This document shows positions 23,833-33,634 of a DNA stretch of 33,697 nucleotides, piece after piece (within the stretch, counting starts at the first letter, position 1; every line of letters begins with the position of its first letter). Below the pieces are notes generated by a model. It did not search any database. It was not told the DNA's origin and saw nothing but the letters and a program-made list of their open reading frames with translations. The stretch is from positions 1 through 33,697 of the forward strand of contig NZ_WRPM01000021.1 of NCBI RefSeq assembly GCF_009758175.1, written 5' to 3'. Origin of the DNA: Nesterenkonia alkaliphila. Lineage in GTDB: Bacteria; Actinomycetota; Actinomycetes; Actinomycetales; Micrococcaceae. The position numbers and the translations under genes are program-made.

Positions 23833-24675
23833 ATGACCGCTACAAGCACCATCTGGCGCGGAGCAGCCACACGGGGAACAGCCACACGGGGAGCAGCCAC
23901 ACGCGGAGCAGCCGCACTGAGTGCAGCAACCCTGGGCGCAGCAGCCCTGCTGCTGACTGCCTGCGACTCCGATCAGAACGGGGACACGGAGGCCCCGGCC
24001 CCGGAGTCCTATCAGGGACCGGAGCATGCTGAAGAGATGCTCACCGATGAGCAGGCCCAGCAGCTGACCCTCAGCCAGGATGAGTTCCCGGTGGAGTTCG
24101 AGGAATTCGAATCCATGAACTATGCCGATTTCGGCGATGAGGTGGCCGCCGAGATGGCTGCCCAATCCGCCATGCCCGAGATCCAAAGCTGCGATGAGCT
24201 CGCCGGTTATGCGCAGGACCAGGCCGCCAGTGGCGGCTCGGGCAGCGCGGACCAGGAGGCTGAGGATTTTGAGGGTGAGGTGGCCGGCACCATGGCCATG
24301 GGCATGTGGAACCTCGCCGACCTCGAGAACTTCAGCCTATTGGCCAGCAGCGTGGGCAGTTACGAGGACTCCGACCCAGCCGAGCACCAGGAGCACAGTG
24401 AGGCCCTGCGCGACTGCGACGGCGAGACGGTCCAGCTCACCCAGGACGGCATCGACTTCGATGTGACCTTCGAGCACCTGGCGCAGGGCCCCTGGGAGGG
24501 CGTGATCATGACCATGGCCGCCGAGGTGGAGGGCGAATCCATGCAGACCGACATTGGCTTCCTGTGGCTCTACACCGGAGTTGACGGGCTGGTCGTGATG
24601 GGCATGGGCGAGGGCGCCGAGCATATCGAGGAGACCGCCGAGGCTCAGCTGGAGAAGTACGAGACCGGACTCTGA
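23833..24675 (+). CDS. Acidic lipoprotein of unknown function
   Basis: A 280-residue exported lipoprotein. The signal peptide is unusual: its basic n-region is a tandem repeat of Gly-Ala-Ala-Thr-Arg (residues about 10-29), followed by an Ala/Leu core and lipobox LTAC with Cys44. The mature protein is strongly acidic, with 'EEMLTDEQAQQLTLSQDEFP' and two mid-protein cysteines (about residues 120 and 195) that could form a disulphide. I recognise no family. GAGGAGGAG lies about 7 nt before the ATG at 23833. It is followed by a 24706-24739 inverted repeat and then by the glycosyltransferase operon on the same strand, but a 177-bp gap with its own repeats suggests separate control. Confidence 0.85.
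   Translation: MTATSTIWRGAATRGTATRGAATRGAAALSAATLGAAALLLTACDSDQNGDTEAPAPESYQGPEHAEEMLTDEQAQQLTLSQDEFPVEFEEFESMNYADFGDEVAAEMAAQSAMPEIQSCDELAGYAQDQAASGGSGSADQEAEDFEGEVAGTMAMGMWNLADLENFSLLASSVGSYEDSDPAEHQEHSEALRDCDGETVQLTQDGIDFDVTFEHLAQGPWEGVIMTMAAEVEGESMQTDIGFLWLYTGVDGLVVMGMGEGAEHIEETAEAQLEKYETGL
23860..23919 (+). repeat. 15-bp minisatellite, four units, in the lipoprotein signal peptide
   Basis: Units at 23860, 23875, 23890 and 23905 follow the consensus GGAGCAGCCACACGG; units 1-3 differ by one base each and unit 4 by three. Each unit adds five residues, so copy-number changes keep the reading frame. Confidence 0.8.
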
Positions 24676-24739: not shown

Positions 24740-24775
24740 ATGGCAGCCCAGGCAGCTGTGAGGTGAGGATGAGGC

Positions 24776-24833
24776 GAAGATGAGAAAAACAATGCTGCTT
24801 TCTCATTCTGCTCTCACTGGCCTCTCACATTGG
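24776..24833 (+). promoter_or_regulatory. Inverted ATGAGAAA/TTTCTCAT pair and 11-bp direct repeats upstream of the glycan operon
   Basis: ATGAGAAA (24780-24787) and TTTCTCAT (24799-24806) are a perfect inverted pair. TCTCAT, TCTCAC and TCTCAC begin at 24801, 24812 and 24823, exactly 11 bp apart, the spacing used by OmpR/PhoB-family response regulators. A related block (GAAGATGAGA, ATGAGAG/CTCTCAT, TCTCAT and TCTCAC 22 bp apart) occurs at 33061-33107. No -10 box is evident downstream. Confidence 0.5.
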
Positions 24834-24852: not shown

Positions 24853-26088
24853 ATGAGCATCACCGTTGCCATGTATTCCCACGACTCAGTGGGGCTGGGT
24901 CACGCCCGGCGGAACCGTGCCCTGGCCTTCGCCCTGGCTGCCGACCTGCCCCGGATCACCGGCGAGCGGGTCCGCGGCCTTCTGGTGGCCGGGCACGCCG
25001 GAGCCACCGCCGACGCCCTGCCTGAGGGGTGGGACTGGCTGGTGCTGCCCGGGTTCACCCGCACCACCAACGGCTACGAGTCGCGCAAACTGGATGTCAG
25101 CACCGAGCGGCTCTGGCACCTGCGCAGCTCAACCGCCGCCGCAGCACTGGAGGCCATGGCCCCGGAGCTGCTGATTGTGGACCGGCACCCTTTCGGCGTG
25201 GACAACGAGCTGCTGCCCGCCCTGGAAACCCTGCAGGGCACCGGCACCCGCTGCGTGCTGGGCATGCGGGAGGTGCTGGACACCCCGGAGGCCACCCGCG
25301 CTGAATGGGAGCTCATCGGTGGCCCGGCCGCCGTGGCGCACTACTACTCCGGGCTCTGGATCTACGGAGACCAGACGGTCTATGACCCCCTGGCCACCGG
25401 TGAGATCCCGCAGGAGCTCTCACCGATCACCCGATTCACCGGTTACCTGGCTCACGGCCGGCCAGATGACCCGCTGACCGCATCCTCTCTGGTGCCCGCC
25501 CAACCCTATCTGCTCACGATGGTCGGCGGCGGCTCTGATGGCGGGGCACTGGGCCTGGCAGCGGCCCGAGCCGAAGTACCGGCCGGGCACCGGCACATCA
25601 TCCTCACCGGCCCCCAGATGCCGGCCGCCGATCACGACGCCATTCTTGATGCGGCGCGCAGCTCGGGGTCGCCGCGCGGGCAGCTGCGGGTCTCCCGCTA
25701 CGCACCGCATGTGCCCATGCTGGTGCGTGATGCCGCAGCCGTGGTGTCCATGGGCGGCTACAACTCACTGGCCGAAATCATGGCCACCACCACCCCGGCG
25801 CTGATCGTACCGCGCAGTTCCCGCCGCGCCGAGCAGCGGCTGCGCGCCCATTCGCTGGCCGCTACCGGCGCCGTGGACGTGCTGAATCCCGAGGACCTCA
25901 GCCCAGCCGCCCTCTCCGCCTGGGCCGCCGCAGCAGTCCGCCGGCGCGGCCTGCGCGACGGTATCGACCTGGACGGGCTGACCAGGATCGGTGATCTGGC
26001 CGCCGAACAGATCCAGGCGCGGCGGGCGTCGTCGTCCGCTCCGCAGTCCACTCACGCCCATATCGCACCCGTTGAGCGTGTGCGCTGA
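24853..26088 (+). CDS. Glycosyltransferase, COG4671/MurG-like
   Basis: A 411-residue GT-B fold glycosyltransferase, first gene of the operon. The N-terminal Rossmann strand leads into 'MYSHDSVGLGHARRNRALA' (about residues 7-25), the hallmark of the COG4671 'predicted glycosyltransferase' group. The C-terminal half has a MurG-like nucleotide-sugar site: 'LLTMVGGGSDGG' (about 220-231) and 'VVSMGGYNSLAEIMATTTP' (about 297-315), then 'VPRSSRRAEQRLRA'. No membrane helix or signal is seen, so it acts in the cytoplasm, perhaps on a lipid-linked acceptor. I use the ATG at 24853; TTG codons at 24844 and 24847 are alternatives, and none has a clear ribosome-binding site. The next gene begins 16 bp downstream. 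Sugar and acceptor are unknown. Confidence 0.85.
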   Translation: MSITVAMYSHDSVGLGHARRNRALAFALAADLPRITGERVRGLLVAGHAGATADALPEGWDWLVLPGFTRTTNGYESRKLDVSTERLWHLRSSTAAAALEAMAPELLIVDRHPFGVDNELLPALETLQGTGTRCVLGMREVLDTPEATRAEWELIGGPAAVAHYYSGLWIYGDQTVYDPLATGEIPQELSPITRFTGYLAHGRPDDPLTASSLVPAQPYLLTMVGGGSDGGALGLAAARAEVPAGHRHIILTGPQMPAADHDAILDAARSSGSPRGQLRVSRYAPHVPMLVRDAAAVVSMGGYNSLAEIMATTTPALIVPRSSRRAEQRLRAHSLAATGAVDVLNPEDLSPAALSAWAAAAVRRRGLRDGIDLDGLTRIGDLAAEQIQARRASSSAPQSTHAHIAPVERVR

Positions 26089-26104
26089 AAGAGAGTTGAT
26101 ACCC

Positions 26105-27421
26105 ATGTCCTCCGCCCCCGTGATCGGTTATGTGCTGAAGATGTACCCCCGGTTCTCTGAGACCTTCATCGTGTCCGAGATCCTGGCCCGCGAAGCCGCC
26201 GGGGAGCGGATCGTGATCTTCAGCCTGCGCACCCCCACTGATGCCCGGTTCCACGCGGAGCTGGCCAAGGTCAAGGCCCCGGTGGTCCAGATCCCGCGCA
26301 CCTCCAACGCCAGCAAAATGTGGCAGCGCCTAGGCGAGGCAGCAGCCGTCCCTGACCTGGGCGCGGGGATCCAACGCCTGCTGCCGGAGCTGATTCGGGC
26401 CGAGGCGGAGGATGCCTTCCAAGCGGTGCTGCTGGCCCAGGAGGCCCGGAACCACGGGGTCACCCATCTGCACGCCCATTTCGCCTCGGTGGCCACAACG
26501 GTGGCGCGATTCGCCGGTTCCATCGCCGGACTGCCGTACTCCTTCACCGCCCACGCCAAGGACATCTTCCACGAGGATGTGGACCAGGCAGAGCTGGAGC
26601 GAAAGCTGGCTCAGGCCCACCACGCAGTGACCATCAGCAGGTACAACCTGGAGGATCTGCGCCGCCGGTTCCCCGCTGCCAGCCAGAATCTCCACCTGGT
26701 GCGCAACGGACTGAACCTTGAGCGATTCCCCTATCAGCCGCGCACCATCAGCCGCCGCGTGCCCCGAATCCTGGCCGTGGGCCGGCTGGTGGAGAAGAAA
26801 GGGTTCGGTCTGCTGGTTCAGGCAGTGGCCCAGCTGCGAGAGCGCGGACTCCCGGTTCAGGCTGATATCGCAGGCGACGGGCCGTTGGCCGCTGAGCTGG
26901 AGGCCCAGATCGCCGCCCTCGAGCTGCAGGACCAGGTGCATCTGCTGGGACCGCGCACCCAGGCGGAGGTCAATGAGCTGCTGGGCAGCCACGATGTCTT
27001 TGCCGCACCATTCGTGGTGGGCTCCGACGGCAATGCCGATGGTCTGCCCACAGTGCTTCTGGAGGCGATGGCCCGCGGCATCCGCTGCGTTGCTGCGGAG
27101 GTGACCGCCGTGGGTGAGGTGGTGCGCAACGGTGAGACGGGTTGGTTGGTGCCCACCGGGGATCTCACTGCCTTCAGCGATGCTCTGGCACAGGCGGTGC
27201 AGCCGGGGGATCACACCGCGATCACTGATGCCGCCCGCGCTCTGGTGGAGGAGCAGTTCGACAGCAACCGACAGGCCGCTCATCTGCGGGCACTGGTCAC
27301 TGCGCCGCAGCAGACGGATACCCCCCAATGGGGCAGCGAGAGGCCCGGCAGAGAGGCGGTGTCCTCCGAGGCGAGCGAGGGATTCATCCCAGCCCGGAGC
27401 TCAGCGGGGGTGCTGCGATGA
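26105..27421 (+). CDS. GT4-family glycosyltransferase (first copy)
   Basis: A 438-residue retaining glycosyltransferase with a GT-B fold. The N-terminus 'GYVLKMYPRFSETFIVSEI' is typical of exopolysaccharide GT4 enzymes such as colanic-acid WcaL. An acceptor-side block is 'THLHAHFASVATTVARFAG' (about residues 120-138) and 'FTAHAKDIF'. The C-domain has 'ILAVGRLVEKKGFGLLVQA' (about 221-239) and the EX7E-like region 'SDGNADGLPTVLLEAMARG'. A 45-residue polar, proline- and serine-containing tail follows the domain. The ATG at 26105 has a weak AGAGAG upstream; a longer open frame from 25991 is not used because it would overlap the previous gene. Its TGA overlaps the next ATG (ATGA). Confidence 0.9.
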   Translation: MSSAPVIGYVLKMYPRFSETFIVSEILAREAAGERIVIFSLRTPTDARFHAELAKVKAPVVQIPRTSNASKMWQRLGEAAAVPDLGAGIQRLLPELIRAEAEDAFQAVLLAQEARNHGVTHLHAHFASVATTVARFAGSIAGLPYSFTAHAKDIFHEDVDQAELERKLAQAHHAVTISRYNLEDLRRRFPAASQNLHLVRNGLNLERFPYQPRTISRRVPRILAVGRLVEKKGFGLLVQAVAQLRERGLPVQADIAGDGPLAAELEAQIAALELQDQVHLLGPRTQAEVNELLGSHDVFAAPFVVGSDGNADGLPTVLLEAMARGIRCVAAEVTAVGEVVRNGETGWLVPTGDLTAFSDALAQAVQPGDHTAITDAARALVEEQFDSNRQAAHLRALVTAPQQTDTPQWGSERPGREAVSSEASEGFIPARSSAGVLR

Positions 27422-28629
27422 GAATCGCCTATATTCTGGCCGATCCGGGCATCGGCATCTTTGGCACCAAGGGCGCCAGCGTCCATGCCCAGGAGATGAT
27501 CCGAGCCTTCCGGGCTCAGGGGCATGAAGTGACGGTCTTCGCCACCAAACGCGGCAACAAATACGGTGAACCCGGCACGGAGTACGTGCCCGAGGACCTC
27601 AAGGACCTGCCGGTGTTCGTAGTCCCGGTGGCCGGGGCCAAAGGTGCAGCCGCCCGCGAGCGGGCCACGGCCCGGGCCTCCCGGCGGATGGCCGAGCTGG
27701 CTGCTGAAGGCTCCTACGGCCTGGTCTACGAACGCTACTCGCTGTTCTCCACCGGCGGGGCTGCACTCAGCGACCGGACCGGCGCCCCCCTGGTGGTGGA
27801 GGTCAACTCCCCGCTGCTGGCTGAGCAGTCTGCCCACCGCAGGCTGCACGACGCCCAGGGCGCCATGGAGGCCACTGTCAGGACCTTCACTGCAGCCGAT
27901 GTGCTCAGCTGCGTCTCCACCCCGGTGGCCGGCTGGGCCAGGTGCATCGCCGCCGGTACTGACCCGCGCATTATCGTGACCCGCAACGGGGTCAATGTGG
28001 AACGTTTCAGGCGGCAGCCTACGACGACGCCCCCCAGCCAGTTCACCGTAGGCTTCCTGGGTACGCTCAAGCCCTGGCACGGCACTGAGTACCTGCTGCA
28101 GGCCGTGGCCTCCAGCCCGGCGCTGGCCGGAATCCGGGTGGAGATCCTGGGCGACGGTCCCCAGCGGGCAGAGCTGGAAGGCCTGGCCGGGCGGCTGGGC
28201 ATCGCCGACCAGGTGGTCTTCCACGGGGCGGTGGCGCCTGAGCATGTCCCCGCCCACCTCAGCCGCTGGGATGCAGGTGTGGCACCCTACCCTGCCGCTG
28301 AACAGCAGAGCGAGAACTACTTCTCCCCGCTGAAGATCTACGAGTACCTGGCCGCCGGACTGCCGGTGGTCGCCTCTGCCACTGGGGAGATCCCCGAGGT
28401 CATCGAGCACGGCGTGACCGGTCTGCTGGTCCCCGGATCAGATCCCGCGGCCCTGGCTGAGGCTCTGGGCCGGCTGGTCACAGACCGGCAGCTGAGCCGC
28501 CGGATGGGTGCGGCAGCCCGCGCCGAGGCGCAGCGGCACCACAGCTGGGGAGCCCGGGCCGCAGCGGTGCTGAAGGCCGTAGGTGCCGGGCTGCCGGCCC
28601 CAGTCCCTGCCGCGGAGGTGCTGGGCTGA
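27418..28629 (+). CDS. GT4-family glycosyltransferase (second copy)
   Basis: A 403-residue GT4 glycosyltransferase, clearly different in sequence from its upstream neighbour. The N-terminus is 'MRIAYILADPGIGIFGTKGA' with the Gly-rich acceptor loop; the donor domain shows 'VGFLGTLKPWHGTEYLLQA' and the EX7E region 'YFSPLKIYEYLAAGLPVVAS' (about residues 300-319), then 'TGEIPEVIEHGVTGLLVPG'. No membrane segments. The ATG at 27418 shares ATGA with the previous stop, which fixes the start despite a longer open frame from 27328. It ends in TGATG with the ABC transporter gene. It should add a further sugar to the product of the operon. Confidence 0.9.
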   Translation: MRIAYILADPGIGIFGTKGASVHAQEMIRAFRAQGHEVTVFATKRGNKYGEPGTEYVPEDLKDLPVFVVPVAGAKGAAARERATARASRRMAELAAEGSYGLVYERYSLFSTGGAALSDRTGAPLVVEVNSPLLAEQSAHRRLHDAQGAMEATVRTFTAADVLSCVSTPVAGWARCIAAGTDPRIIVTRNGVNVERFRRQPTTTPPSQFTVGFLGTLKPWHGTEYLLQAVASSPALAGIRVEILGDGPQRAELEGLAGRLGIADQVVFHGAVAPEHVPAHLSRWDAGVAPYPAAEQQSENYFSPLKIYEYLAAGLPVVASATGEIPEVIEHGVTGLLVPGSDPAALAEALGRLVTDRQLSRRMGAAARAEAQRHHSWGARAAAVLKAVGAGLPAPVPAAEVLG

Positions 28630-30527
28630 TGGGCAAGAAGTCACCCTCACTGAACCGGCAGGCGCTGCTGCGCACCCTGCGGATGGTCTGGCCTTTCGTC
28701 AAGCGGCATAAGCTGCTGGTGGGCCTGGGCATGCTGGCCCTGATCGGCGATGTCCTGTTCCGGATCCTGGAGCCCTGGCCGGTGAAGTTCGCCGTGGATG
28801 CGGTCACCGACGCCCTGGGCGCGGAGCTTGAGAGCACTGCCGACGGGGCCGATAACGTGGCCGGGGTGATCGTCTTCTGGTCAGTGGCCCTGGCCGGAAT
28901 CGTGGCCGGCCGCGCCATCTGCAACTACGGCTCCACCATCGCATTCGCCAAAACCGGAGTGAAGGTGGCCGCCAGGCTGCGCACCAAAGTGTTCGAGCAT
29001 ATTCAGTCACTGTCGCTGCGCTACCACTCGAAGGCCAGTATCGGTGACACCTCCCAGCGCCTGGTAGGCGATATGGGCCGGCTGCAGGAGGTGGCCGTGA
29101 CCGCCGGGCTGCCGATGATCGGCAACCTGCTCACCCTGATCGCCCTGTTCGTGGTGGTTATTGTGCTCAACCCGGTGCTGGCCCTGGTGGTCACCGCTAC
29201 TGCCGGCGGCTATCTGCTGGCCTCACGGGTGCTGAGCCCCAAGATCACCACCGCATCGCGAGCCACCCGTAAGGGCGAGGGGCAGCTGGTGGGTGACGCT
29301 GCCGAGGCGCTGGCGGCAATCCGGGTGGTCCAGGCCTACGGGCTGGAGGACACTGTGGCCTCCGGGTTCGCCGCCGGGAACGAGAAGGCTCTGAGGGCCG
29401 GGATCAAGGCCCGCAAGCTGGCCGCCAAGCTGGAGCGTTCCACCGACTTCTTTGTGGGCATCGCCACCGCAGTGGTGCTGGGCTTCGGCGGTTGGCAGGT
29501 GCTGGCCGGAGTGATGACCCCCGGGGATATGGTCCTGTTTCTGATGTACCTGAAGATCGCGATGAAGCCGCTGCGGGATATGGCCAAGTACACCGGGCGG
29601 ATCGCCCGGGCCACCGCCTCCGGTGAGCGCATCGCGGATCTGCTCGATGAACCGGTGGAGGTCACTGACCCCAAGGACCCGATGCCGATGCGCCGGGTTA
29701 CCGGTGAACTGTGCTTCTGGGAGATCAGTGCTGCCGACGGCCGAGGTGTGCCGCTGTTCGAGAACCTCAGCCTGCGCATCCCCGCCGGCCAGCGGGTGGG
29801 CCTGCTGGGCCCCTCAGGGGCCGGCAAGTCCACTCTTACCGGATACCTGCTGCGGCTGGCCGATCCCGACTCCGGATCGGTGCTGGTGGACGGCTACTCC
29901 ACCCGCAGCGTGGCCAAGGCTGAGCTGCGCGGCAATATAGCGGTGCTGCTGCAGGAATCGGTGCTGTTCTCCACCAGCATCGCAGAGAACATCCGCTACG
30001 GCCGCCAGGAAGCCACCGATGATGAGGTGGTCAGCGCCGCCCGGCGGGCCGGCGCCCATGACTTCATCACGAAGCTCCCCGAGGGCTATGAGACGGTGCT
30101 GGGCAACCGCGGCGATACCCTCTCCGGCGGCCAGCGGCAGCGGATCGCAATCGCCCGGGCCCTGGTCCGCAACGCTCCCATCGTGCTGCTGGATGAACCC
30201 ACCTCCGGGCTGGACCCGGCCTCCCGGGCGAAGGTGGAGGAATCCATCCGGGAGCTCACCGCCGGGCGCACCACTATCGCCATCACCCACGATCTCTCCA
30301 TGATCCAAGGGCTGGACCGGGTGCTGTGGCTGCAGGGCGGCGCCATCCTGGAGGACGGAGCTCCCCAGGAACTGCTGGCCGACTCGGAGTCGAAACTCGC
30401 ACAGTGGGCGCAGAGCCAGCGCCGCAGCATGGCCTCGGCCGCCGAGCGTGGGCAGCACACTGGGCTTCCCACCGCCCATGACCTCCTGATCCCCGATCGC
30501 CGTCTGCCCCGTGAGGTGAATGCATGA
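28629..30527 (+). CDS. ABC exporter with fused membrane and ATPase domains
   Basis: A 632-residue half-transporter of the MsbA/lipid-multidrug exporter type; two copies would form the exporter. Membrane domain about residues 15-330 with six helices, including 'LVGLGMLALIGDVLFRILEP' and 'IVFWSVALAGIVAGRAI'. The ATPase domain is complete: Walker A 'GPSGAGKST' with Lys400, Q-loop 'VLLQESVLFSTSI', signature 'LSGGQRQRIAIARAL' (about 498-512), Walker B 'IVLLDEPTSGLD' with Asp522 and catalytic Glu523, and H-loop His554. The C-terminal 60 residues are hydrophilic. It overlaps the upstream glycosyltransferase by one base and the downstream kinase by four. The position between three glycosyltransferases and two kinases suggests it flips or exports the glycoconjugate made by the operon. 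Confidence 0.93.
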   Translation: MGKKSPSLNRQALLRTLRMVWPFVKRHKLLVGLGMLALIGDVLFRILEPWPVKFAVDAVTDALGAELESTADGADNVAGVIVFWSVALAGIVAGRAICNYGSTIAFAKTGVKVAARLRTKVFEHIQSLSLRYHSKASIGDTSQRLVGDMGRLQEVAVTAGLPMIGNLLTLIALFVVVIVLNPVLALVVTATAGGYLLASRVLSPKITTASRATRKGEGQLVGDAAEALAAIRVVQAYGLEDTVASGFAAGNEKALRAGIKARKLAAKLERSTDFFVGIATAVVLGFGGWQVLAGVMTPGDMVLFLMYLKIAMKPLRDMAKYTGRIARATASGERIADLLDEPVEVTDPKDPMPMRRVTGELCFWEISAADGRGVPLFENLSLRIPAGQRVGLLGPSGAGKSTLTGYLLRLADPDSGSVLVDGYSTRSVAKAELRGNIAVLLQESVLFSTSIAENIRYGRQEATDDEVVSAARRAGAHDFITKLPEGYETVLGNRGDTLSGGQRQRIAIARALVRNAPIVLLDEPTSGLDPASRAKVEESIRELTAGRTTIAITHDLSMIQGLDRVLWLQGGAILEDGAPQELLADSESKLAQWAQSQRRSMASAAERGQHTGLPTAHDLLIPDRRLPREVNA

Positions 30528-31714
30528 GATCTGCCGCCGAGCCGTTCATACCCACCCCCGCCCAGGCGGACGCGGCCGCAGCCTCCGCCGTGGAGCTGGA
30601 CCGCGCTGAGGAACTGATCCATGCTGCGCTGCTCTCCGAGCTGCTGCAGCGCAGCGTGCAGGTCACCCACGCCCGGATCAAGCCAGGGCACTCCGTGGTG
30701 GTGGCCCACGCCGGTGAGGACGGTGCGCATGGTTGGACCATGCTGACCTCCGACCAGGATAAATTCGGCAAGGCCCGGCAGCGGGCAGCGGACTTCGGCC
30801 AACAGCTCCAGGTCCACCAGCGCGACCCCGCCCGGGGCTACCTCTACAGCGGCAGCATCTGGTCAGATCCGGCGCTGGCCAAAGAGCTGCACGATGCCCG
30901 CAGCAGCCTTGACGAGGCTGAGGGCCGCCCGGTGCAGTGGCAGATCCTGCGCTACAACCCCCGGCGCCGCCTGGTGGCCGTGGTCGATGCCGGGCACAGC
31001 CCCAAAGTAGTGCGGGTGGCTGCCGGGGGTGCAGACCAGCTGCTGGCCACCGCCCTTCGCTGGCGCAGCCTGGGGCTCCCGGTAACCAATGTCTCCCCCC
31101 TGGGGCGCCGGCACTCAGCGACCATCGCCCCGTTGTGGGGCGTAGGCGACCTCACCGAGTACCCCTATGAACCGGCCGCCCAGCGCGCCGGGGAGGCGGT
31201 GGCCCAGCTGCACCGCGCACCGCGGCACGAATCCTGCGGAGACCGGCCTCATGCCGATCCGGCCGAGGCCGCCGCAGCCCTGGGCAGGATCGCTCCCTGG
31301 TTGGCCGCCCGCGCCGACCAGCTGGCACTGCGCTGCAGCAGCCAACTCAGGCCCACTCTGAGCTCCACAGCTGCTGAGATCCACGGTGACCTTTCCCCCG
31401 ACCAGGTGATCCTGGCCGCAGCAGCCAGCCATAAGGTCCGGATCATCGACCTGGACCGGGCCGGCTGCGGCCACCCGATGCGCGATATCGGCTCCTGGGT
31501 GGCCACCTGCCGGCATAGCGGCACACCGGAACTCATTGACGCGTTCCTGGCCGGATACGCCACCGGGGCACCGCTGGAACCCGCCGATCTGGACGCCTGG
31601 GAGGCCTACGCCCATCTGTCCCGGGCCACCGACTTCTTCCGGCACCGGGAGTCGGATTGGCCCCGGCAGACGGTCCACGCACTGAACCTGGCCGAGGAGG
31701 CACTGAACCGATGA
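30524..31714 (+). CDS. APH-fold small-molecule kinase (first copy)
   Basis: A 396-residue protein of the aminoglycoside phosphotransferase/choline kinase superfamily, which phosphorylates hydroxyls of small molecules or sugars. The first 140 residues are an extra N-terminal region without a recognised motif. The N-lobe ATP-binding Lys is in 'GHSPKVVRVAAGG'. The catalytic loop is 'IHGDLSPDQVIL' with His287, Asp289 and Gln294 in place of the usual Asn. The metal site is 'RIIDLDRAGCG' with Asp309 and Asp311, followed by 'HPMRDIGSWVATC'. A Gln at the Asn position also occurs, as I recall, in actinobacterial maltokinases. GAGGTG precedes the ATG at 30524, which overlaps the ABC stop. A role as drug-resistance kinase is unlikely given the setting. 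Confidence 0.87.
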   Translation: MRSAAEPFIPTPAQADAAAASAVELDRAEELIHAALLSELLQRSVQVTHARIKPGHSVVVAHAGEDGAHGWTMLTSDQDKFGKARQRAADFGQQLQVHQRDPARGYLYSGSIWSDPALAKELHDARSSLDEAEGRPVQWQILRYNPRRRLVAVVDAGHSPKVVRVAAGGADQLLATALRWRSLGLPVTNVSPLGRRHSATIAPLWGVGDLTEYPYEPAAQRAGEAVAQLHRAPRHESCGDRPHADPAEAAAALGRIAPWLAARADQLALRCSSQLRPTLSSTAAEIHGDLSPDQVILAAAASHKVRIIDLDRAGCGHPMRDIGSWVATCRHSGTPELIDAFLAGYATGAPLEPADLDAWEAYAHLSRATDFFRHRESDWPRQTVHALNLAEEALNR

Positions 31715-31744
31715 GCATTGAACCGATGAACACAGAACCGATGA
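31705..31744 (+). repeat. Three GAACCGATGA units, 15-bp period, at the second kinase start
   Basis: GAACCGATGA occurs at 31705, 31720 and 31735. Each copy contains an in-frame ATG of the second kinase (31711, 31726, 31741). Only the first forms the ATGA overlap with the stop of the previous gene. Confidence 0.85.
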
Positions 31745-32610
31745 CCACTCTGATCGCAGACCCCGCCCTGCCGGCCCTCGATGAACTGATGAGCATCGGC
31801 GCTGAACTGGTCTCCCATAAACGGGGCAGGCGCGCCGTGGTGCGGATGCAGACCGGCAGCGGCACCCAGTTCATCAAAGTGGTCAGACCCGGCAAGGCAG
31901 CCAAGATCCTCGATGGCATCCGCCGGGCGGAACCCTTCAACGGCCCCTTCCGCACCCCGGAGGTGCTCCAGAGCACCGATTCCACGGTGACCTTCGCAGA
32001 GCTGACAGGTCTCAGCCTGCACAGCCCTGAACAGCTCTCCCAGGATCAGTGGGTGCAGGCCTGGACTCAAGTGGCCGCCTCCCTGGCGCAGGTCATCCGG
32101 ACCGGCCGGCCTCAGGACCAGCCGGCACCGCTGGTGCACTCAGCCGAGGCGGAGGTCCGGGTACTGCGGCAGTGGTTCCAGCGCAGCGCGGAGCAGCTGC
32201 CACAGGCTGCGCGCACGCAGCAGCAGCTCACCAAGCTCGCCAGCCAGCTAGAGCAGATCAGCACCCCCCGGATGAGTCCCACCCACCGCGATCTGCATGA
32301 CAAGCAGCTGCTCTGGTCCGCAGCGGCCGGTCCCGGGCTTCTAGATGTTGACACCGCCTGCGCAGCTGATCCGGCACTGGATCTGGGCAACCTCAGGGCC
32401 CATGCGCTACTGCGCCGGCTGCAGGGACTCTGGTCACCTGCCGAGGCTGAGACCGTGCAGTTCTGCCTCGACCACTGCGCCGAGGAGACCTCGGTGCCCC
32501 GAGAGTCCGTGGCGGTCTATGAACGGGCTGCCCTGCTGCGGCTCAGCATGGTCTATGCGCTGCGGCCCCAGCACAGCACCGTAGCCGAGGAGCTGACTCA
32601 GCTGGTCTGA
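31711..32610 (+). CDS. APH-fold small-molecule kinase (second copy)
   Basis: A 299-residue kinase-like protein of the same superfamily as its upstream neighbour but only distantly similar. The ATP-binding Lys lies in 'GTQFIKVVRPGKAAKI' (about residues 50-66). The catalytic loop is 'THRDLHDKQLLW' with His192, Asp194 and Gln199; the metal motif is 'LLDVDTACAADPALDLGNL' with Asp212 and Asp214. All catalytic positions are intact. The start is one of three ATGs in a 15-bp repeat; I use 31711, which gives the ATGA overlap typical of this operon. It is the last gene, and its final 13 bases overlap the end of a convergent membrane-protein gene. Confidence 0.86.
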   Translation: MSIEPMNTEPMTTLIADPALPALDELMSIGAELVSHKRGRRAVVRMQTGSGTQFIKVVRPGKAAKILDGIRRAEPFNGPFRTPEVLQSTDSTVTFAELTGLSLHSPEQLSQDQWVQAWTQVAASLAQVIRTGRPQDQPAPLVHSAEAEVRVLRQWFQRSAEQLPQAARTQQQLTKLASQLEQISTPRMSPTHRDLHDKQLLWSAAAGPGLLDVDTACAADPALDLGNLRAHALLRRLQGLWSPAEAETVQFCLDHCAEETSVPRESVAVYERAALLRLSMVYALRPQHSTVAEELTQLV

Positions 32611-33005
32611 GTCGCTTCCAGCCACTCCTGTGTGGGCTTGATGAAGAGCAGGACCAGGGCCAGGGCGGCCGGCAGCAGGAATATCAGCCCAGTTCCCACC
32701 GCCCCGCCGGAGAAGAAGCTGAAGGAGAGCACCACCAGCAGCAGCTGAAGCACCATCGCGGGGGTACGCGCGGCCGGTGAGCCCTGAAAGATCTGGAAGC
32801 CCAGCAGCACCAGAATCACACCGGAGAGCAGGAACAGTATGCTCAGCGCAACAGTGCCTGCGGTATCGAGCACCTGAGCATCCTCGGTGAAGACCGAGGC
32901 CAGGGTGCCGAAGATGACAGCCGCACCCTGCAGGAACATCACCACGTAGATGACCCACACCGGCACCGGCCGGGGCGGCCGGGCAGAGGAGGCAGTCTCA
33001 GACAT
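32598..33005 (-). CDS. Small four-helix membrane protein of unknown function
   Basis: A 135-residue hydrophobic protein. Segments are about residues 15-36 ('VWVIYVVMFLQGAAVIFGTL'), 48-73, 82-99 and 103-120, with a short polar N-terminus and a C-terminal 'KPTQEWLEATQTS'. I recognise no family. The ATG at 33005 lacks a clear ribosome-binding site. The gene is convergent with the kinase operon, with a 13-bp tail overlap, and divergent from the Pro/Thr/Ser-rich gene across 161 bp that contain shared repeats. It may belong functionally to either neighbour. Confidence 0.75.
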   Translation of the reverse strand: MSETASSARPPRPVPVWVIYVVMFLQGAAVIFGTLASVFTEDAQVLDTAGTVALSILFLLSGVILVLLGFQIFQGSPAARTPAMVLQLLLVVLSFSFFSGGAVGTGLIFLLPAALALVLLFIKPTQEWLEATQTS

Positions 33006-33060: not shown

Positions 33061-33107
33061 GAAGATGAGAGAGCTCTCATGCCGGTTTCCTGCTCCTCTC
33101 ACAATAG
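33061..33107 (+). promoter_or_regulatory. ATGAGAG/CTCTCAT pair and phased TCTCAC hexamers before the Pro/Thr-rich gene
   Basis: ATGAGAG (33065-33071) and CTCTCAT (33074-33080) form an inverted pair. TCTCAT at 33075 and TCTCAC at 33097 are 22 bp apart, with a degenerate TTTCCT at the midpoint (33086), the same 11-bp phase as at 24801-24828. The block ends next to where a -35 element would lie for the -10 at 33126, as in response-regulator-activated promoters. Confidence 0.5.
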
Positions 33108-33125
33108 GCGGCCAGAGTAAACACG

Positions 33126-33131
33126 TAAGAT
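33126..33131 (+). promoter_or_regulatory. Probable -10 box of the Pro/Thr/Ser-rich gene
   Basis: TAAGAT, 35 nt before the ATG at 33167. No TTGACA-like -35 is present at the usual distance; the repeat block at 33061-33107 occupies that place. Confidence 0.45.
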
Positions 33132-33166
33132 CACAGCAGAAACGTCCAAGGAGTACTGAAAAGACC

Positions 33167-33634
33167 ATGAGCCGACAGACCACCTGGGTCATCACCGGAG
33201 CTCTGAGCATCGTTGCCCTCGGCGGCGGCACCGCCATAGCTTCCACCCTGGGCCAGGACAACGACCAGGACTTCGGGCCCGCCGTAGAGGTCACCACCAC
33301 ACAGGCGCCCACCGACTCCCCCAGCTCATCGCCCTCACCGACCAGCACGGCCTCACCAAGCAGCACGGCCTCACCGAGCAGCTCGCCCAGCCCCAGTTCG
33401 ACGCCGTCCCCCTCCCCAGAGAGCCCCACCTCCAGCCCCACACCGCAGAACACTCAGCAGGCTCCGCCGCCGCCCCCGCAGACTACCCAGGCGCCTCCGC
33501 CACCTCCGCAGACTACCCAAGCGCCTCCGCCGCAACAGGTGAATCCGGCTCCCCCACAGTCCTGGAGCTCACCGAGCTCCTGGTCCCCGGCCTCAGCCGA
33601 GAGCTGGAGCGCGCCCAGCGCCCCTAGTTCCTGA
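33167..33634 (+). CDS. Pro/Thr/Ser-rich envelope protein with N-terminal membrane anchor
   Basis: A 155-residue protein with a short basic start and one hydrophobic segment ('TTWVITGALSIVALGGG', about residues 5-24). This is either an uncleaved anchor or a signal peptide ('AIAST'). All the rest is disordered Ser/Pro/Thr/Gln. It includes an 18-bp DNA repeat at 33344-33379 (Ser-Thr-Ala-Ser-Pro-Ser twice) and a 30-bp repeat at 33476-33535 (PQTTQAPPPP twice). Such regions often span the cell wall and can be O-mannosylated; no folded domain is present. AAGGAG lies 13 nt before the ATG, longer than usual. The upstream repeat block resembles that of the glycan operon, so it may be co-regulated. No homologue recognised. 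Confidence 0.75.
   Translation: MSRQTTWVITGALSIVALGGGTAIASTLGQDNDQDFGPAVEVTTTQAPTDSPSSSPSPTSTASPSSTASPSSSPSPSSTPSPSPESPTSSPTPQNTQQAPPPPPQTTQAPPPPPQTTQAPPPQQVNPAPPQSWSSPSSWSPASAESWSAPSAPSS

Follow-up and report, generated by a model that had tools for sequence, protein, structure and literature searches.

A conserved operon of three glycosyltransferases, an ABC exporter and two coupled kinase-fold proteins in Nesterenkonia alkaliphila, a candidate system for the export of a phosphorylated glycoconjugate

What is made and moved by a bacterial operon that joins three glycosyltransferases to an ATP-binding cassette (ABC) exporter and two kinases of the APH fold? Such an operon occupies positions 24853-32610 of a 33,697-nucleotide stretch of DNA from Nesterenkonia alkaliphila (assembly GCF_009758175.1, contig NZ_WRPM01000021.1, positions 1-33,697), which is referred to here as the window. 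That the six genes form a real, conserved unit of glycan type is certain, but the chemistry is not. We favor, at a probability of about 55%, the reading that the cassette assembles an anionic glycoconjugate, either cell-surface or secreted, phosphorylates it, and exports it through the ABC protein under OmpR-type two-component control.

The six genes form a conserved unit of glycan type

All six open reading frames are intact, run on the forward strand from ATG starts to TGA stops, and are separated in gene order by 16, -4, -1, -4, and -4 nt, a spacing of translationally coupled genes, in agreement with the 1-4 nt overlaps among five of the genes described in a first-pass annotation of this DNA. 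The first gene encodes a GT28/MurG-like glycosyltransferase of 411 aa (24853-26088; PF04101), matched to the solved MurG structure 1f0k with an E value of 4.5e-10 when its family profile is used. It is followed by two GT4 glycosyltransferases, GT4a (26105-27421, 438 aa), which is EpsE/WcaL-like but below the curated cut-offs, and GT4b (27418-28629, 403 aa), then by an ABCB/MsbA-like exporter half-transporter (28629-30527, 632 aa), and finally by two proteins of the CAK/APH kinase fold, K1 (30524-31714, 396 aa) and K2 (31711-32610, 299 aa). Pfam assigns, in every case above the curated cut-off, the GT28 C-terminal domain to the first protein, Glycos_transf_1 and Glyco_transf_4 to each GT4, ABC_membrane and ABC_tran to the exporter, and APH to each kinase, which bears out the gene content that had been read from the sequence alone. 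All NCBIfam matches listed for the six proteins score below their curated cut-offs; therefore, no curated name fits any of them. Neither a Wzx flippase, a Wzy polymerase nor a TagGH transporter is found among the Pfam matches of the six proteins or the NCBIfam matches listed. The operon also holds no sugar-nucleotide gene, as had been noted earlier, the family scan not extending to the rest of the window.

A search with K1 of 149 genomes of the family Micrococcaceae gave matches in 18. Thirteen of the 17 genomes other than that of N. alkaliphila show the six genes in identical order, the GT28 frame being broken in one (L037), and three have weak matches elsewhere. A wider set of loci was obtained by scanning genome contigs with a GT28 profile, and the best 80 of at least 572 relatives among the candidates were used. 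One of these, L118, was dropped: its GT28-GT4 set is of actinobacterial type, and the record, which bears the title Vibrio cholerae 35D, looks mislabelled or contaminated. In 71 of the remaining 79 loci, the six genes occur in the same order and on the same strand; of the other eight, six are cut by a contig end, one lacks K1 (L125), and one has a K1 match that failed the filter though it is visible in the locus (L068). The hosts include Nesterenkonia, Garicola, Micrococcus, Kocuria, Arthrobacter, Brevibacterium, Brachybacterium, Rathayibacter, Microbacterium, Tessaracoccus, Corynebacterium, and Schaalia, among others. Between the six proteins, pairwise distances show correlations of 0.82-0.92 over 70 of the 71 loci (one was dropped), the largest permuted value being 0.155. 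L037 was left out of alignment A1, and no repair was made to the frames that stops or shifts interrupt in several loci.

Among 40 deeper loci chosen at the level of order, class, and phylum, all six families are present in 26 and at least one kinase in 35, and the five without a kinase sit on contigs of 8.9 kb or less. Gene order varies in some deep loci, for example with a kinase between GT4b and the exporter. L219 and L222 (genomes G869 and G859), which have one kinase in that place, show by eye sulfotransferase-like neighbours, and L219 also a UDP-glucose dehydrogenase-like gene. Since gene order is kept across genera, and the genes are found together in deeper loci too, chance adjacency is excluded: the cassette is sporadic but kept together where present. 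The first-pass annotation had staked its reading on a search of gene neighbourhoods across actinobacteria, to be given up if the six genes did not co-occur in related genomes, and they do co-occur.

K1 and K2 are homologous and share an unusual catalytic loop

Membership of both kinases in the CAK/APH fold follows from their Pfam matches and from the fold matches of their predicted models (predicted local distance difference test scores of 95.3 for K1 and 94.1 for K2), those of K1 falling on residues 111-396. The two are homologous by profile comparison and share one reading frame in 14 of the 71 loci, representing seven genera. The usual catalytic loop of this fold is HxDxxxxN. K1 and K2 have HxDxxxxQ instead, as HGDLSPDQ in K1 (31382-31405) and HRDLHDKQ in K2 (32284-32307), with Gln present in 38 of 38 aligned K1 sequences and 48 of 49 aligned K2 sequences. 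Ten other APH places were found in the N. alkaliphila genome, and the loop is clearly readable in four, all with Asn. Both kinases retain the catalytic Asp and, in the DxD that follows it, the two Asp residues (invariant or at least 90%), K2 keeps an invariant Lys, and K1 has, by eye, Arg or Lys at the position expected for the ATP-binding Lys. The description of the kinases as unrelated is overturned by their profile homology, their frequent fusion in one frame, and their common Gln signature; of the intact catalytic loops ascribed to them, the loops are indeed present, but with Gln in place of Asn.

Residues 45-111 of K1 (30656-30856) form an extra N-terminal unit that resembles a second kinase N-lobe. 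In the predicted model its elements run strand-strand-strand-helix-strand-strand, the same as those of residues 139-203, and it matches K1 residues 130-210 by profile (P 3.3e-5, probability 72), whereas its match to the K2 N-lobe has only P 0.025 and probability 2. Fold matches hardly extend over the first 110 residues of K1, so that it is the model element order and one weak profile match that suggest a duplicated N-lobe, and the unit may alternatively be a maltokinase-type cap.

The best solved profile and structure match of K1 is the class V lanthipeptide kinase LxmK (9dk1-9dk3), tied with methylthioribose kinase. The structural matches of the kinases also include N-acetylhexosamine 1-kinase and glucosamine kinase, and YtaA (2q83) appears among many similar kinase fold matches. 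A phmmer search of solved structures with K1 alone returned chance matches to repeat proteins only. Identity with LxmK, which belongs to class V lanthionine synthetase, was rejected for the two kinases at 29.2 and 28.9 bits versus a cut-off of 315 (NF038156); peptide-modification partners were not seen beside K1, no search having been aimed at them. APH(3') aminoglycoside-resistance identity was likewise rejected (NF033068, 17.1 and 20.1 bits versus 205), as was membership of the lipopolysaccharide (LPS) core WaaP/Kdo kinases, no such family being among the Pfam matches of K1 and K2 up to E 0.1. Two K2-type kinase genes stand in tandem behind K1 in three loci from Arthrobacter and Pseudarthrobacter (L107, L111, and L115).

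Exporter, sugar-nucleotide neighbours and plasmid-borne relatives

Assignment of the exporter to MsbA was rejected, with scores of 350.8 bits for TIGR02203 versus a cut-off of 602 and 375.8 bits for TIGR02204 versus 780.4; among solved half-transporters, SAV1866 and TM288 rank before MsbA. In one deep locus (L218) the exporter and an APH kinase form a single protein of 968 aa, a fusion that suggests a place for the kinase late in the pathway, at export.

Next to the cassette, a gene of UDP-glucose dehydrogenase type is found repeatedly, with at least 14 members in at least nine genus labels, and an epimerase is found in at least three loci. These counts come from a rough gene caller and are lower bounds, because it lost GT28 in 21 loci; each deep locus was counted as its own genus label, and the open reading frame listing of some loci includes shadow frames.

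The cassette is also found on proteobacterial plasmids. There are 274 plasmid records with a GT28 relative, and 13 that match the K1 of the Escherichia coli version (10 Escherichia, two Paracoccus, and one Pseudorhodobacter). On the E. coli plasmid, the same six-gene arrangement has genes for an Alginate_exp porin and a nucleotide-sugar dehydrogenase behind it. Compared with the window proteins, the three glycosyltransferases and the exporter are 34-40% identical and K1 is 30% identical, and the kinase in the K2 position has a BLAST match to K2 over 52 residues only. This version occurs in 18 of 5,426 complete E. coli genomes and is plasmid-borne every time. In the plasmid cassette of Paracoccus aestuarii, K1 and K2 are one protein of 740 aa with two APH stretches, and a HAMP histidine kinase and a response regulator lie divergent beside the cassette. 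Plasmids of Rhizobium etli and Azospirillum (L225 and L229) have a GT28-GT4 set behind an oligopeptide-type uptake ABC operon, near an ABC protein of 904 or 1020 aa.

A candidate OmpR-type switch upstream of the operon

The array TCTCAT-N5-TCTCAC-N5-TCTCAC at 24801-24828 of the forward strand, an exact match to the pattern TCTCAY-N5-TCTCAY-N5-TCTCAC, is a candidate response-regulator site of the operon. A degenerate triple 11-bp direct repeat with two mismatches lies inverted relative to it at 24758-24785 of the reverse strand, and another copy with two mismatches is found at 33075-33102 of the forward strand, before the gene for a secreted Pro/Ser/Thr-rich protein. With up to three mismatches allowed, the triple repeat has three matches in the window, the only sequence scanned with it, versus 0.15 expected. 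The double-repeat core has three matches in the genome, two of them overlapping the operon upstream site, and its backward-read control has four; since the control is as frequent, only the tight array is telling. Across loci, CTCA pairs at 11-bp spacing are present in 48 of 78 upstream regions (L120 was left out for too little sequence), including 12 of 12 from Nesterenkonia, and in no more than four of 78 random windows of the same loci over 200 draws. Counted by spacing, there are 88 such pairs at 11 bp, 48 at 22 bp, and six at most at any other spacing from 5 to 24. By eye, the sequences ahead of the Paracoccus and E. coli cassettes show no obvious TCTCA array.

Repeats phased in this way serve as binding sites for OmpR-family proteins. 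A relative of the OmpR-type response regulator of N. alkaliphila within 4 kb, together with a histidine kinase within 5 kb, accompanies the cassette in 40 of 73 loci with 15 genus labels, the six contig-cut loci being left out; this is a lower bound, because most loci end about 3 kb behind K2. By comparison, 19 matches to the response regulator in the 3.3 Mb of the N. alkaliphila genome amount to about 0.05 expected per 8-kb interval. In this genome the closest regulator copy lies on contig 80, where its neighbours are a histidine kinase and a third APH-fold protein (HGDFHPAN). The end of the window and the end of contig 80 align to neighbouring stretches of Nesterenkonia ebinurensis (to 18646 and from 18829 of locus L047, respectively), and the regulator pair therefore probably adjoins the cassette in N. 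alkaliphila too. The third APH-fold protein, which has the ordinary Asn loop (L236, 15081-16319 of contig 80), would then probably lie between the histidine kinase and the window end. The gene for the Pro/Ser/Thr-rich protein spans 33065-33634, with a likely start by eye at 33167, and may be co-regulated with the cassette through the repeat copy that precedes this start.

Proposed pathway and alternatives

In the pathway that we propose, the GT28 protein and the two GT4s would build a short glycan at the inner membrane face, probably on a lipid carrier. K1 and K2, acting as one physical unit, would phosphorylate the glycan or a sugar in it, and the ABCB-type exporter would move the product out, with an AlgE-type porin able to finish export in diderm hosts. 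The UDP-glucose dehydrogenase neighbours and the E. coli porin together point to an anionic, uronate-bearing product. Expression would be switched on by the OmpR-type two-component system, binding at the 11-bp-spaced direct repeats.

Several observations weigh against this pathway. Most sampled genomes lack the cassette: the GT28 profile is found in 53 of 297 genomes sampled from the order, in 15 of 296 from the class, and in 13 of 246 from the phylum, samples that each include N. alkaliphila and overlap in part. K1 is missing from L125, and in G105, a genome of the family, a K1 relative stands with none of the other five genes in the 18 kb retrieved. The operon has no polymerase or ligase, and most loci have no sugar-nucleotide gene nearby. 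Among solved sequences, the exporter is matched best by multidrug and lipid pumps, in part owing to the two halves present in those chains, and exporters of the ABCB type move a wide range of cargoes. With Gln at the metal-binding position, catalysis could be weak or absent. On plasmids, only 13 records match the E. coli K1 versus the 274 with a GT28 relative, the E. coli kinase in the K2 position scores 35.9 bits on the K1 profile versus 31.1 on the K2 profile and may not be a K2 orthologue, and in Rhizobium etli and Azospirillum the relatives of GT28 and GT4a lie close to a divergent ABC protein with no kinase recognised, from which it follows that the glycosyltransferase part can work without kinases. 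The regulatory association is also uneven. Exact 11-bp CTCA repeats are lacking in 30 of 78 upstream regions and in 30 of the 40 deeper loci, neither regulator gene is in reach in 29 of 73 loci, the repeats of Brachybacterium and Microbacterium stand with no regulator in reach, and Brevibacterium has the regulator without the repeats in 11 of 13 upstream regions, one of them showing a CTTA variant by eye.

Other roles for the kinases have to be weighed against phosphorylation of the glycan. K1 and K2 could be precursor (salvage) kinases, yielding sugar-phosphates that become nucleotide sugars for the three glycosyltransferases, in which case the exported glycan would be unphosphorylated. The sugar kinases of the same fold among their structural matches agree with such a role, but no nucleotidyltransferase was recognised by eye in 21 recurrent neighbour families, few of which were scanned, and the fusion of a kinase to the exporter in L218 does not suit it; we regard salvage as unlikely. 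We give a little less credence still to a non-catalytic or regulatory role, in which one or both of these kinase-fold proteins would bind the glycan and act as a gate on the exporter. The near-universal Gln in place of the metal-binding Asn and the Arg or Lys of K1 would fit this, as would the precedent of Bacillus CotS, termed possibly inactive (PMC2860764). Set against it are the retained catalytic Asp, DxD Asp pair, and K2 Lys. Pseudokinases usually lose such catalytic residues.

A pathway for an antibiotic-like saccharide, in which the kinases would provide self-protection and the ABC protein would be a drug pump, appears highly improbable. APH-fold kinases and ABCB pumps are typical of such clusters, and many close solved matches of the window proteins are drug kinases and multidrug pumps. 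However, no recurrent biosynthetic neighbour was recognised besides the sugar dehydrogenase and the epimerase, and in many genera the six genes are inherited together, frequently along with a two-component pair.

Comparison with known systems

In LPS core assembly, waa glycosyltransferases build the core, WaaP/WaaY kinases phosphorylate it, and MsbA flips it. The cassette resembles this scheme in that a glycolipid core would be built, phosphorylated, and moved by an ABCB exporter, and differs from it in its kinase families, in an exporter that scores below the MsbA equivalog cut-off, and in hosts that are mainly monoderm. A more ambitious version of the glycoconjugate reading, which we put forward tentatively and hold to be rather less probable, is that of an undescribed, phylum-crossing machine, in which coupled Gln-loop kinases, one with a duplicated N-lobe, phosphorylate a glycan built by GT28 and GT4 enzymes and hand it over to a dedicated ABCB exporter under its own OmpR-type switch, as a monoderm counterpart of the phosphorylated LPS core pathway. 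The Alginate_exp protein after K2 in the E. coli version recalls alginate-type export through AlgE, but there is no porin in the N. alkaliphila operon and no other annotated alginate gene in the E. coli stretches inspected.

The closest precedent for the kinases is the Bacillus spore-coat cluster, in which the CAK-fold kinase genes ytaA (cotI) and cotS stand with two GT4 genes (cotSA/ytcC), a UDP-glucose dehydrogenase, and an epimerase (ytcA/ytcB/ytdA; PMC2860764). Two CAK-fold kinases beside two related GT4s are met in both systems, and the statement of the first-pass annotation that such kinases are not part of any glycan system it could name was thus too strong, although its core proposal, a coupled unit for glycan assembly and export that co-occurs in relatives, holds. 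The genes listed there for Bacillus include no GT28 protein or ABC exporter, and the cluster is spore-associated. The cassette adds the exporter, kinase fusions, and a two-component pair, and is found in actinobacteria and on proteobacterial plasmids. Kinases beside GT4s are therefore a known pattern, of which the GT28 protein, exporter, kinase fusions, and regulator pair make a distinct variant. Literature searches for the cassette or its rhizobial relatives gave no recognisable description among the items listed, most subscription journals being outside the search.

To our knowledge, actinobacterial surface glycans are poorly mapped outside mycobacteria and corynebacteria. The six genes form a compact unit that stays together in actinobacteria as far apart as Nesterenkonia and deep lineages, and that also occurs on plasmids of E. 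coli and Paracoccus; if it does phosphorylate and export a glycan, it would add a class of charged envelope glycoconjugates to those of actinobacteria. The paired Gln-loop kinases, the unit of K1 that resembles an N-lobe, and the fusion of a kinase to the exporter offer testable biochemistry, and the promoter repeats provide a handle for induction.

Genes flanking the operon

Directly upstream of the operon, on the same strand, is a lipoprotein-like gene (23833-24675) with a weak PknH_C match below the cut-off. A small membrane protein with a sub-threshold DUF7144 match is encoded at 32598-32966 on the reverse strand, and similar proteins stand, by eye, behind K2 in L048, L049, and L051.

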